A stretch of 25,744 bases of DNA, taken from positions 1 to 25,744 of the IMG/VR virus record IMGVR_UViG_3300020428_000072; one strand, written 5' to 3'. This stretch comes from a virus. Below, piece after piece: positions 7,161 through 25,744 of this stretch. A program made the position numbers and the translations under genes. The number at the start of each line of letters is the position of its first letter. Within the stretch, counting starts at the first letter, position 1. The notes beneath the pieces were generated by a model. That model was not told the DNA's origin. It saw nothing but the letters and a program-made list of their open reading frames with translations, and did no database searches.

Positions 7161-7196
7161 GTTTGACACCTATGATTTTTGGAAGGCAGTCTTCCA
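7157..7196 (+). promoter_or_regulatory. Two tandem 6-bp hairpins upstream of talC
   Basis: Hairpin 1 is ATAGGT (7157-7162) with ACCTAT (7168-7173) and loop TTGAC, followed by GATTTTT. Hairpin 2 is TGGAAG (7180-7185) with CTTCCA (7191-7196) and loop GCAGT. Both stems are perfect and both loops are five bases. They end 20 bases before the talC ATG. Hairpin 1 with its T run could be a weak intrinsic terminator; hairpin 2 could shape the talC leader or define an RNA end. Confidence 0.45.
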
Positions 7197-7216
7197 CAAC
7201 ATTACTAAAATTAAAA

Positions 7217-7879
7217 ATGAGATTCTTTTTAGACACCGCAAACATAGAAGAGATTGAGTCACGTTATGATACAGGACTTATTGATGGGGTAACAACAAAC
7301 CCTACCTTAATACTTAAATCAGGTCGTACTCAACAAGATGTAATCAAAGAGATTGCACAAAGATATCCTGCTATGGAGAGTATATCTGCTGAGGTAGTCG
7401 CTGAGACTGCTGATGAGATGATAGCACAAGCAGAGACTTACTACCCAATCTCACCTGCTGTTACTATTAAAGTTCCATGTACAGTTGAGGGACTTAAAGC
7501 ATGTAAGAGATTGAGTGATAATGGTATTCCAACCAATGTAACACTTGTATTCTCTGTTGCTCAAGCATGTTTAGCAATGAAGGCAGGTGCTACATACCTC
7601 TCACCATTTGTAGGTAGACTTAATGACAATAGTTTTAGTGGTGTTGAGTTAATCAAAGCAATCTGTGGTGTTCAGAAGGAACATAAGATGCCTACTAAAA
7701 TCTTAGCAGCATCTATTAGAGAAGCACATCAAGCATCACGTTGCTTGTTATATGGTGCTCAGGTATTAACACTACCACCAAAGACATTCGATAATATGTA
7801 CAAGAGTGTACTGACTAGAGAAGGTCTTGATCTATTCAATCGTGACTATGCGGAGGCAAGTTTAAATGCTGGAAATTAA
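7217..7879 (+). CDS. talC: Transaldolase (TalC/fructose-6-phosphate-aldolase-like)
   Basis: A 220-residue short transaldolase matching the usual size of the TalC/FSA group. It starts MRFFLDTANIEEI and has GVTTNPTL (24-31) for the phosphate-side loop. Schiff-base Lys85 lies in AVTIKVP, and GIPTNVTLVFS and GATYLSPFVGRLND follow. In cyanophages this enzyme is a well-known auxiliary metabolic gene that drives the host pentose phosphate pathway, supplying NADPH and ribose for phage DNA. An upstream TTG start at 7163 is rejected because it would translate the two hairpins and lacks the family N-terminus. The 3' end overlaps the next gene by 14 bases. Confidence 0.97.
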   Translation: MRFFLDTANIEEIESRYDTGLIDGVTTNPTLILKSGRTQQDVIKEIAQRYPAMESISAEVVAETADEMIAQAETYYPISPAVTIKVPCTVEGLKACKRLSDNGIPTNVTLVFSVAQACLAMKAGATYLSPFVGRLNDNSFSGVELIKAICGVQKEHKMPTKILAASIREAHQASRCLLYGAQVLTLPPKTFDNMYKSVLTREGLDLFNRDYAEASLNAGN

Positions 7880-17978: not shown

Positions 17979-18277
17979 GTGAATCCTATGTACCTAAAGT
18001 CGATGACTATGTTATTTGGGAGAGACACGGACAGTTAGATGAGGGTTGGGTATATTTTGTCGGTGATCCACCAATTAAGAAGAGAGGATTCCCTACATGT
18101 CCCCAGTACATTACAATAGAGACTAATGTTAAACCTAAACCTGATTGTCAATATGCTAAAAATGACAATCATCGCATGATACATACATTACTATTATGCT
18201 ATCAACAAGACTGGAAGGATTTAAAATACGTTAAGACACGTATTAGACAAGACATACAATTAGAGTTAGATCTATGA
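17975..18277 (+). CDS. Conserved cyanophage hypothetical protein, 100 aa
   Basis: The N-terminal half looks like a small SH3-like barrel (YVPKVDDYVIWERHGQLDEG, WVYFVGDPP) with PTCPQYITIET strands. The C-terminal half is helical and basic (LCYQQDWKDLKYVKTRIRQD). I recall close relatives in T4-like cyanophages, unassigned. ATGA overlaps connect it upstream and to ho1 downstream. Confidence 0.75.
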   Translation: MSESYVPKVDDYVIWERHGQLDEGWVYFVGDPPIKKRGFPTCPQYITIETNVKPKPDCQYAKNDNHRMIHTLLLCYQQDWKDLKYVKTRIRQDIQLELDL

Positions 18278-18945
18278 CACTATCAAAAGAACTAAAGACA
18301 GGAACTAAGAAGTCACACTCCGCAGCAGAGAATACCAAATTTGTTGCATCATTCCTTAGAGGTGTACTTGATCCTGAAGAGTATCGTAAACTCATAGCAA
18401 ACTTCTACTTTGTTTATAGAGCAATGGAGGAGGAGATCAGCAAACATCATGATGATGTTGCGGTAGCAGTGATTGATGATCCTGTATTATACAGAACACA
18501 ATCACTTGAGAGAGATCTCAGGTATTATTATGGTCCAAATTGGAGAGCAATCATAACACCAACTGACGCATGTCAGCAGTATGTTAATCGAATACGTGAG
18601 GTGGATAAGATGTTGTTGATTGGTCATCATTATACCAGATACATTGGTGATCTATCAGGAGGACAAATACTCAAAGGTATAGCAGAGAAGGCATTAACAT
18701 TACCAGAAGGTGAAGGGTTACACTTCTATGATTTTGATAAGATAGAAGATGCTAAAGAGTATAAGAATGAGTATCGTGCATCATTAGATGCGTTAGAACT
18801 TGATCAATCACAGATAGATGCTATAATATCTGAAGCAAACTATGCGTTCAAACTTAATATGAATATGTTTGATGAGATTGAGGGCAGTGCTCGTAAATCT
18901 CTTTGGGTAATGTTCACTAAATGGATTGGAGGTATCTTTAAATGA
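18274..18945 (+). CDS. ho1: Heme oxygenase (biliverdin-producing)
   Basis: The 223-residue protein matches cyanobacterial/cyanophage HO1 in length and motifs. Proximal His15 lies in KKSHSAAEN, FYFVYRAMEEE is conserved, and the distal helix GDLSGGQILKG (125-135) has its flexible glycines. It opens heme to biliverdin IX-alpha with ferredoxin electrons, releasing iron and CO. In cyanophages ho1 supports synthesis of phycobilins and is a standard auxiliary gene; no pcyA or pebS is visible in this window. It overlaps both neighbours by four bases (ATGA), inside the unit driven from about 17490. Confidence 0.96.
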   Translation: MTLSKELKTGTKKSHSAAENTKFVASFLRGVLDPEEYRKLIANFYFVYRAMEEEISKHHDDVAVAVIDDPVLYRTQSLERDLRYYYGPNWRAIITPTDACQQYVNRIREVDKMLLIGHHYTRYIGDLSGGQILKGIAEKALTLPEGEGLHFYDFDKIEDAKEYKNEYRASLDALELDQSQIDAIISEANYAFKLNMNMFDEIEGSARKSLWVMFTKWIGGIFK

Positions 18946-24576: not shown

Positions 24577-25437
24577 ATGGACACAGAGGAATTAGTAGCA
24601 ATGTACGAAGACAACAGGAAGGGAAGATTAAACGAAGTAGTTCATGAATATTTGAATGATGCAAGTGTAACATCACAAATATTCCTTGAGGATTTGAAGG
24701 GAATTTTGGCAGGTCATGCTGCACATAAAGCAGAAGAGCACAGAAGAGCACAAGTAGCAGCAATCGCTAAATCTGAGGAAGCAGCAAGAGTTGCAGCAGA
24801 GTTAGCGGATAAGGTAGAAGAACAAAATGCTGCACAGTTTGATGCTGATCAAGCAGCACAGTCAATTCATTGGGTTGATGATAGTGTGGTTGCCTATGCA
24901 GGAACAGCATTTGATGCACCTGAGTATTATGCTACTGCTGATACTGGTACAGTGAATATTGATACAAGCATTTATCCACCCGATCATCCATATCATATTG
25001 ATACCACAGTTGGTGCAGGTTCAACCGCAGCATATCCAACTGCAACATATAATGTAGATACCACATTGTATGGTGATGTGAGTATTGCATCAAGTGAAGC
25101 AAATCCTTATGGATATTATGACCATGATCTTGGTGGAGCATTTTATGTTGATGGTCACAGTGATGTGCATCAAGTACCAGAAGAGGTTCAAACATATACT
25201 GCACCACCACAAACAGGAGTGATTGCAGGTTACGCATCAAGTGAAGCAAATCCTGATGGATATTATGGAACTGACCCAACAACATATCCAGTTGGTACAG
25301 CATCAAGTGAAGCAAATCCAACAGGATATTATGATGAACCAAATAATGTAGATCCTCAAACACCTGAGACTTATCCAGTTCCAGAACCAGATTTTGATCC
25401 ATTAGCAGTGCCATCTAAATTTGATGCTCATAACTGA
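24577..25437 (+). CDS. Repeat-containing low-complexity protein, 286 aa
   Basis: The N-terminal 90 residues are helical and Ala/Glu-rich (HAAHKAEEHRRAQVAAIAKS, EEAARVAAELADKVEEQN), a coiled-coil candidate. The rest is Tyr/Pro/Thr/Asp-rich and looks disordered, with three ASSEANP-x-GYY repeats plus TYP, DTT and PEP runs. It resembles a tail-fibre or surface linker rather than an enzyme. Start at 24577 (MDTEELVAMYEDN) has a GAGGA site but only three bases away; 24565 is an in-frame alternative. The TATAAT at 24547-24552 just after the previous stop is a possible promoter. Confidence 0.72.
   Translation: MDTEELVAMYEDNRKGRLNEVVHEYLNDASVTSQIFLEDLKGILAGHAAHKAEEHRRAQVAAIAKSEEAARVAAELADKVEEQNAAQFDADQAAQSIHWVDDSVVAYAGTAFDAPEYYATADTGTVNIDTSIYPPDHPYHIDTTVGAGSTAAYPTATYNVDTTLYGDVSIASSEANPYGYYDHDLGGAFYVDGHSDVHQVPEEVQTYTAPPQTGVIAGYASSEANPDGYYGTDPTTYPVGTASSEANPTGYYDEPNNVDPQTPETYPVPEPDFDPLAVPSKFDAHN
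25087..25332 (+). repeat. Three in-frame copies of an 11-residue repeat
   Basis: The 20-base core GCATCAAGTGAAGCAAATCC occurs identically at 25087, 25234 and 25300, each encoding ASSEANP followed by x-G-Y-Y. The DNA identity exceeds what protein conservation needs, so the copies are recent duplications or are kept alike by recombination. Confidence 0.85.
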
Positions 25438-25526
25438 TGAAGAAGATCATAGCATGGATTAAAGACCATTTACCAAAATGGTTAGATTTATCCCATGATA
25501 AACCTTGGGAACAACCAGATGAATAA
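25437..25526 (+). CDS. Hypothetical protein, 29 aa
   Basis: It starts in a TGATG junction with the previous stop and fills the gap up to the terminator. It is a short amphipathic, Trp-rich peptide (MKKIIAWIKDHLPKWLDLSH) with an acidic tail (DKPWEQPDE). A membrane-surface helix is possible. The terminator eight bases later makes it the last gene of its operon. Confidence 0.6.
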   Translation: MKKIIAWIKDHLPKWLDLSHDKPWEQPDE

Positions 25527-25533
25527 CCGTCAC

Positions 25534-25561
25534 AAACCACATGTAACAGTGTGGTTTTTTT
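25534..25561 (+). terminator. Rho-independent terminator
   Basis: AAACCACA (25534-25541) pairs perfectly with TGTGGTTT (25550-25557) around an eight-base loop, and the 3' side runs into seven consecutive Ts (25555-25561). It closes the long co-directional gene block that ends at 25526. Confidence 0.85.
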
Positions 25562-25564
25562 GTG

Positions 25565-25570
25565 TATAAT
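25565..25570 (+). promoter_or_regulatory. Candidate -10 box in GTGTATAATA after the terminator
   Basis: TATAAT at 25565-25570 in TGTGTATAATAGG follows directly on the terminator. It shares GTGTATAATA with 15207-15216 and 17323-17332. The position for a -35 box falls inside the terminator hairpin (TGTAAC) and matches poorly. It would start a transcript into the structured segment. Confidence 0.55.
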
Positions 25571-25571
25571 A

Positions 25572-25744
25572 GGTTCATCAACATAAGTGAGGTTCTTAAC
25601 TACTCCGACATTCCATTTTTGGTGAGAAGCGGAGACATGACGTTAAGGTAATTGACTTCCCCTCCAGTTGATGACCGCAGAGGTAACTGATGTGGTTCCT
25701 ATGCCCCGATTAAGTTTGGGGGTTCAGGTGTAAGCGATTCCCAT
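25572..25744 (+). ncRNA. Candidate structured non-coding RNA, cut by the window end
   Basis: No convincing reading frame is present. Four perfect helices nest in order: TCATCAAC/GTTGATGA (25575-25582 with 25667-25674, extended by GG/CC across a bulge), GAGG/CCTC (25589-25592 with 25661-25664), CTTAAC/GTTAAG (25595-25600 with 25642-25647) and CTCCG/CGGAG (25603-25607 with 25630-25634). A further CCCC/GGGG hairpin lies at 25704-25721. A terminator and promoter box sit just upstream. It could be a free RNA or the leader of a gene beyond the window. I cannot match it to a known RNA family. Confidence 0.55.

Follow-up and report, generated by a model that had tools for sequence, protein, structure and literature searches.

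Structured leaders in front of phage or bacterial genes include 5′ mRNA stabilisers and translation leaders such as the 5′ UTRs of T4 gene 32 and ompA. The put RNAs of HK022, which belong to an antitermination system, are structured RNAs near the start of a phage transcript and are mentioned here as an analogy only. The manA and wcaG RNAs (RF01745 and RF01761) are structured RNAs of marine metagenomes and T4-like cyanophages; they are presumed to be 5′ UTRs and were each described as a lone motif upstream of metabolic genes (PMC2864571). GOLLD and ROOL are large multi-domain phage RNAs, and covarying palindromic loops serve as evidence for the homo-oligomers of OLE and GOLLD (PMC12286853).

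The window analysed here, 25,744 bases long, covers an entire IMG/VR virus record, and the structured element at its 3′ side runs past the window end. The segment probably forms the 5′ portion of a structured, composite leader RNA from a T4-like member of the Kyanoviridae cyanophages, one that would act mostly in cis and with a generic effect. The RNA element is previously undescribed and lies outside every Rfam 15 family. At the Rfam 15 gathering thresholds, no family was found in the window or in homologous loci except for an ordinary tRNA in S-SSM4, and relaxed thresholds gave only sub-threshold chance matches and no riboswitch match. No prior description of the modules was found in the open literature searched, most cyanophage transcriptomes being subscription publications outside its reach. 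By position and host, manA and wcaG are the nearest known RNAs; by the oligomerisation signal, it is GOLLD and OLE; membership is not claimed. In contrast to the single motifs of manA and wcaG, the modules of this system are shuffled, nested and without an Rfam match. Likewise without a match to the families of GOLLD, ROOL and OLE, they are small recombined nested modules before start codons, although one of them, module D, shows the same kind of palindromic signal as OLE and GOLLD. Compared with the leaders of T4 gene 32 and ompA, the leader here consists of conserved, interchangeable and sequence-constrained modules.

The features of the segment are as follows:

25534..25561, + strand: intrinsic terminator belonging to the gene upstream, AAACCACA-TGTAACAG-TGTGGTTT and then a T run (stem 25534-25557, followed by T7)
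25565..25570, + strand: TATAAT −10-like box just 5′ of the structured RNA; box retained in L004, L005 and L059
25575-25674, + strand: module A, with the nested helices P1-P4
25575-25582 with 25667-25674, + strand: module A helix P1, 8 bp, TCATCAAC/GTTGATGA; in the minimum-energy fold and with family covariation; its 3′ end is the end of A
25589-25592 with 25661-25664, + strand: module A helix P2, 4 bp, GAGG/CCTC; in the minimum-energy fold and backed by own-versus-swapped pairing
25595-25600 with 25642-25647, + strand: module A helix P3, 6 bp, CTTAAC/GTTAAG; double compensatory changes in 5/6 pairs
25603-25607 with 25630-25634, + strand: module A helix P4, 5 bp, CTCCG/CGGAG; double compensatory changes in 5/5 pairs
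25610..25625, + strand: 16-nt variable insert of the A apical loop, with a weak CCA/TGG hairpin
25626..25641, + strand: conserved core of module A, GAAG-(P4 3′ strand CGGAG)-ACATGAC, nearly invariant outside P4
25648..25660, + strand: joining strand GTAATTGACTTCC from P3 to P2, with an invariant TAA
25679..25744, + strand: 5′ half of module B, cut by the window end (covariance model positions 1-66 of 124)
25692-25695, + strand: module B P2, GTGG
25698-25703, + strand: module B P3 5′ strand, CCTATG
25704-25707 with 25719-25722, + strand: module B hairpin, CCCC/GGGG
25725-25742, + strand: conserved CAGGTGTAAGCGATTCCC of module B
25742-25744, + strand: start of the P3 3′ strand of module B (CAT)

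The sequence-only reading of this segment had described four nested perfect stems of 8, 4, 6 and 5 bp followed by a further hairpin. All four are present as P1-P4 of module A, and the hairpin is the CCCC/GGGG helix of the second module, B. The nested element after a terminator is thus real, with the amendment that the segment holds one full module and half of the next, from a larger RNA that is modular and shuffled. The strong terminator and the TATAAT box placed immediately upstream are both there; a terminator scan found 1 against 0.3 expected in shuffles, and a promoter scan alone gave a count no higher than in shuffles. As had been stated, no reading frame occupies the segment, since no ORF of at least 40 aa crosses it on the + strand. 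ARAGORN found no tRNA or tmRNA, either in the window or among its homologous copies L004-L007. The minimum-energy fold includes all four A stems, both for the segment and for the 103-nt piece with module A. The assertion that such nesting is unlikely by chance failed on folding energy (z −0.05 for 173 nt, with 81/200 shuffles equally good, and z −1.46 for the 103 nt of module A, with 13/200 equally good) but stood on the covariation of A and B. Of the proposed dedicated small RNA or riboswitch-like leader, a structured RNA is strongly borne out by covariation, the lack of a frame, and the terminator and −10-like box upstream; a small RNA is conceivable, and the likeness to a riboswitch holds in position only.

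The covariation set of module A consists of 26 loop-spliced sequences. P3 and P4 are paired in 99.3% of cells, and 10/11 pairs feature double compensatory changes. The double-change cells number 48 against 12.2 in shuffles, a count reached by 0/500 shuffles, and sliding the partners by 1-3 columns lowers pairing to 26-44%. RNAalifold, run independently on the same alignment, recovers both helices. P3 occurs as CTTAAC/GTTAAG, CCTAAC/GTTAGG, TCAAAC/GTTTGA, TTCATC/GATGAA, TCTTTC/GAAAGA and others, and P4 as CTCTG/CAGAG, CTCCG/CGGAG, GTCTG/CAGAC, CCTTG/CAAGG and GTTTG/CAAAC, with the further 5′ strands GACTG and CTCTA in other A copies. P1 and P2 occur in many sequences, each matching only its own partner: their mean pairing is 6.80 and 6.48 bp, and the best of 200 between-sequence swaps reaches 6.27 and 5.36 bp. 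The three closest relatives of the window have the same P1 and P2 sequences as it does, so that support for these helices comes from the wider family and not from those neighbours. The unpaired nucleotides of A (CUA, GAC, GAAG and ACAUGAC) are almost invariant. The A core (CUUAGAAGCAG) resembles the GTPase-centre hairpin of 23S rRNA, a short match that may be due to chance.

Module B features the helices P1, P2 (GUGG/CCAC or ACGG/CCGU), P3, the CCCC hairpin and P5/P6. In the covariation set of 22 sequences, 97.9% of cells are paired and 14/29 pairs feature double changes, with 75 double-change cells against 23.6 in shuffles (0/500 reach this count); the slid controls collapse. The variants of P3 are CUACUG/CAGUAG, CCUAUG/CAUAGG, CCAUAG/CUAUGG and UCAUG/CAUGA, and the unpaired nucleotides CAGGUGUAAGCGAUUCCC, UAAAUUUGG and GGUGAAACC are almost invariant. 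Full-length B copies are present in L004, L005 and L006. As judged by the aligned sequences, A and B are conserved RNA folds kept by compensatory changes, and their near-invariant unpaired nucleotides point to specific tertiary folds or binding sites. In the homologues, a conserved protein frame was looked for and none was found, and changes in the stems are compensated rather than one-sided.

Covariance model R1 matches module A at 25583-25671 with 59.6 bits (E 2e-12), and R2 matches B at 25679-25744 with 59.7 bits (E 3e-16), the 3′ end being cut. Cyanophage homologues, suggested earlier as the target of such a search, exist: both models find modules in cyanophage records that are complete or long. 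Searching with a 23-base pattern of the segment retrieved two viral contigs, L004 and L005, which carry the whole stretch and its continuation. In a BLAST search against phages, the last 53 bases were found in unannotated spacers of P-SSM2 and P-SSM5. The patterns of modules A and B retrieved 67 and 45 contigs, respectively, and module D occurs at no fewer than 120 virome loci. Module A is also present in S-SSM4, S-SSM6b and P-SSM7, and the modules as a whole are found in Kyanoviridae cyanophages including P-SSM2, P-SSM5, P-SSM7 and S-SSM4, an assignment that covers isolates and single-virus records whose taxonomy was read. In the long records scanned, A, B and D usually have one strong copy each; a second match to A, weak at E 0.02, is present in P-SSM2 and also in P-SSM5, and several long records are without one or more modules. 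When 84,980 bacterial and archaeal genomes were scanned for an exact pattern, three matches turned up in unrelated taxa, which is the chance level for an 18-mer; a host origin of the module was rejected, this one scan having yielded no credible cellular copy.

At least ten module types recur, in varying order, before different genes. They are strung together and, in addition, inserted into one another's apical loops. Among 66 usable copies, the apical loop of A is minimal in 16, bears a short hairpin in 5 and harbours K in 18 (alone or with another module), B in 9, F in 8, N in 2 and otherwise M or unclassified inserts; module C is also seen there in other phages. B is nested inside A in L024, L031, L036 and L048, the B hairpin itself accepts inserts (L007, L096, L088 and L064), and the apical loop of C is occupied by K or F or is plain. 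Example arrays are A-B-G-D (L004), A[B]-F-D (L048), B-H-E-F (L042) and B-C[K]-J (L009). Upstream of PSSM2_070 in P-SSM2, near 55,810, lies an A copy with insert M, followed by F and D, and a B-C[K] array (56,698-56,902) lies upstream of PSSM2_071. In L043, L014 and L100, the 5′ and 3′ halves of A come from different types and pair incompletely, and the switch between types sits inside the nested module; these mosaic copies are consistent with recombination within the nested module or with assembly chimeras. Module J (L009, L014 and L044) and the array ends of L051 feature tRNA-like pieces with a T-arm (GTGGTTCAATTCCAC; GGATAGGTTCGATTCCTATC).

Module D is absent from the window and present in the close relative L004. 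In 103/105 contexts (L004-L206), it is followed by a varying six-base palindrome located 15-23 nt before the ATG, as in L006 3331-3390 (P-SSM2 56039-56098). Seven palindromes occur (GCTAGC, CACGTG, CTATAG, CCTAGG, CCATGG, GCATGC and TCTAGA), and the remaining two contexts carry an additional T at the centre. Palindromic six-mers have a background rate of 0.9% in these contigs, and in neighbouring frames 0-1 of about 105 are palindromic, except at offset +2 with 23. Partners of the palindrome in the same transcript are rarer than chance upstream (1 versus 14 expected), and downstream they number 2/94 versus 6.5 expected. The pseudoknot GGAUGU/ACAUCC of D is invariant across copies. Since such a six-base palindrome lacks both a loop and a nearby partner copy, two-molecule pairing is the simplest reading, and the pattern suggests a candidate RNA homodimer site at which transcripts would pair with one another.

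The arrays sit between genes. An ORF starts at most 130 nt downstream on the same strand at 46/68 A loci (other side 8) and at 80/99 D loci (other side 10); the bias is weak for B (21 versus 11 of 66 loci), partly because other modules follow B. The start codon lies mostly 50-80 nt past the core of the last module, with median distances from core to ATG (quartiles) of 76 nt (74-78) for A, 76 nt (75-77) for D and 56 nt (56-57) for C; where A or D is last, this leaves about 15-30 nt past the last helix. The genes behind the arrays are mostly small and fall into at least ten unrelated families, most without a known function, along with a UvsW-like helicase. A Shine-Dalgarno-like sequence precedes 6% of them versus 20% of other ORFs, a control that includes mispredicted ORFs. 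In the −40 to −1 spacers read between last module and start codon, a terminator-like T-run occurs only in L005 and L059. In L008 1273-1510 (S-SSM4), A precedes a very basic ORF of 41 aa (MRLKNHESPRKMGRNSRSK...) near a tRNA-Val gene.

TATAAT directly precedes P1 in the window, L004, L005 and L059, so that the outer stem would form the 5′ end of the RNA, with transcription starting just 5′ of module A at the −10 box. Clear promoters, with TATAAT or TATATAA upstream, are found in part of the arrays only; the automatic placement of P1 is noisy in a general survey of −10 boxes, and only the box of the window and the clear cases were used. A second class of arrays lies 20-30 nt after a stop codon without a recognisable promoter. 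In L012, L024, L046, L055 and others, a stretch like TAAAGTGTCCTTATAGTG takes the place of TATAAT 20-30 nt 5′ of A or B, and such a stretch before the second class is possibly another promoter or an operon linker.

The modules are exchangeable between genes, and the effect is therefore probably generic rather than a gene-specific control by metabolites. The array RNA would act in cis on the transcript it heads, and its probable generic effect is to shield the mRNA from the host RNases E/J and/or to let translation begin without a Shine-Dalgarno sequence. That RNase E and RNase J degrade RNA in the host, and that a cyanophage induces RNase E, is on record (PMC10989914). The conserved internal-loop and junction nucleotides would be the working parts that bind a protein or ligand, with the apical loops as sockets only. 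Where an array ends in D, two copies of its transcript may, in addition, pair with each other via the palindrome just 5′ of the start codon.

Counting against a cis-acting leader, the presence of about one strong copy per module in long records also fits a trans-acting RNA. In this main rival reading, modules processed from leaders or transcribed alone could form a toolkit with one function each (protein sponge, scaffold or host-factor inhibitor), and each would then be needed about once per genome, irrespective of its place. The occurrence of the same module upstream of unrelated genes and the tRNA-like ends of some arrays (L009 and L051) agree with this. Set against it are the constant spacing to the start codon and the strand bias of the ORFs, the absence of one or more modules from several long records, and homologous recombination, which could delete duplicated modules and so give single copies without a role in trans; we regard such a toolkit as unlikely. 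Tandem riboswitches, in which A, B and others would be aptamers for infection-responsive metabolites and control the gene behind, have a low probability. The free swapping of modules among unrelated genes speaks against them, as do the spacers read between last module and ATG, which carry no terminator or anti-terminator bar the T-run in L005 and L059, and the lack of an Rfam riboswitch match even at relaxed thresholds. The size, the junction-based conserved nucleotides and the 5′ position, as taken from the gene map, nevertheless resemble aptamers, and cyanophages have other leader motifs in manA and wcaG (PMC2864571).

Two further explanations dispense with a function of the RNA. The mosaics L043, L014 and L100 and the extensive shuffling would suit a mobile or recombinogenic element at the DNA level, whose conserved blocks provide homology for cassette exchange between phages and whose folds are incidental. 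This is very improbable: compensatory helix changes need selection on RNA pairing, and the mosaics may be assembly chimeras. As the sole explanation, it is contradicted by covariation, although recombination may still spread the modules. Chance folding of an AT-rich intergenic spacer would explain why the segment does not beat shuffles in folding energy, but it is refuted by the covariation of A and B, along with conservation across phage genera and the two covariance-model matches, and its probability is negligible.

Beyond the composite cis-acting leader as the preferred reading, a wider one is put forward tentatively, namely that about ten or more independently folding, pluggable and exchangeable modules, together with a self-complementary one, form a combinatorial RNA kit and thereby a modular type of post-transcriptional control that would be new (or an RNA-only assembly). 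If so, the self-complementary module would, in infected marine cyanobacteria, join like transcripts by pairing close to their start codon. As a natural case of mRNAs pairing through a palindrome, D is a strong candidate. The hosts, Prochlorococcus and Synechococcus, outnumber all other photosynthetic cells in the ocean, and the module set is met repeatedly in marine viromes. Evolution by hierarchical nesting of RNA domains is seen here, and the cultured phages P-SSM2, P-SSM5, P-SSM7 and S-SSM4 make the modules a defined, testable RNA system.

Several minor observations concern the surroundings of the element. Stop codons in these phages often directly precede a short motif, AACTGTCACA or AACTGGCACA, followed by terminators or spacers; in the window it reads TAACCGTCACA (25525-25536), and it is also found in L005 at about 820-830 (− strand) and at many other loci. 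The ORF just 5′ of the element contains near-identical in-frame repeats at 25085-25330 (ASSEANPYGYY, ASSEANPDGYY and ASSEANPTGYY). The window also encodes two typical cyanophage auxiliary genes, a transaldolase (7163-7879; PHROG 440) and a haem-oxygenase-like protein (18274-18945; phrog_17328, which has no listed function, the name being taken from the sequence).
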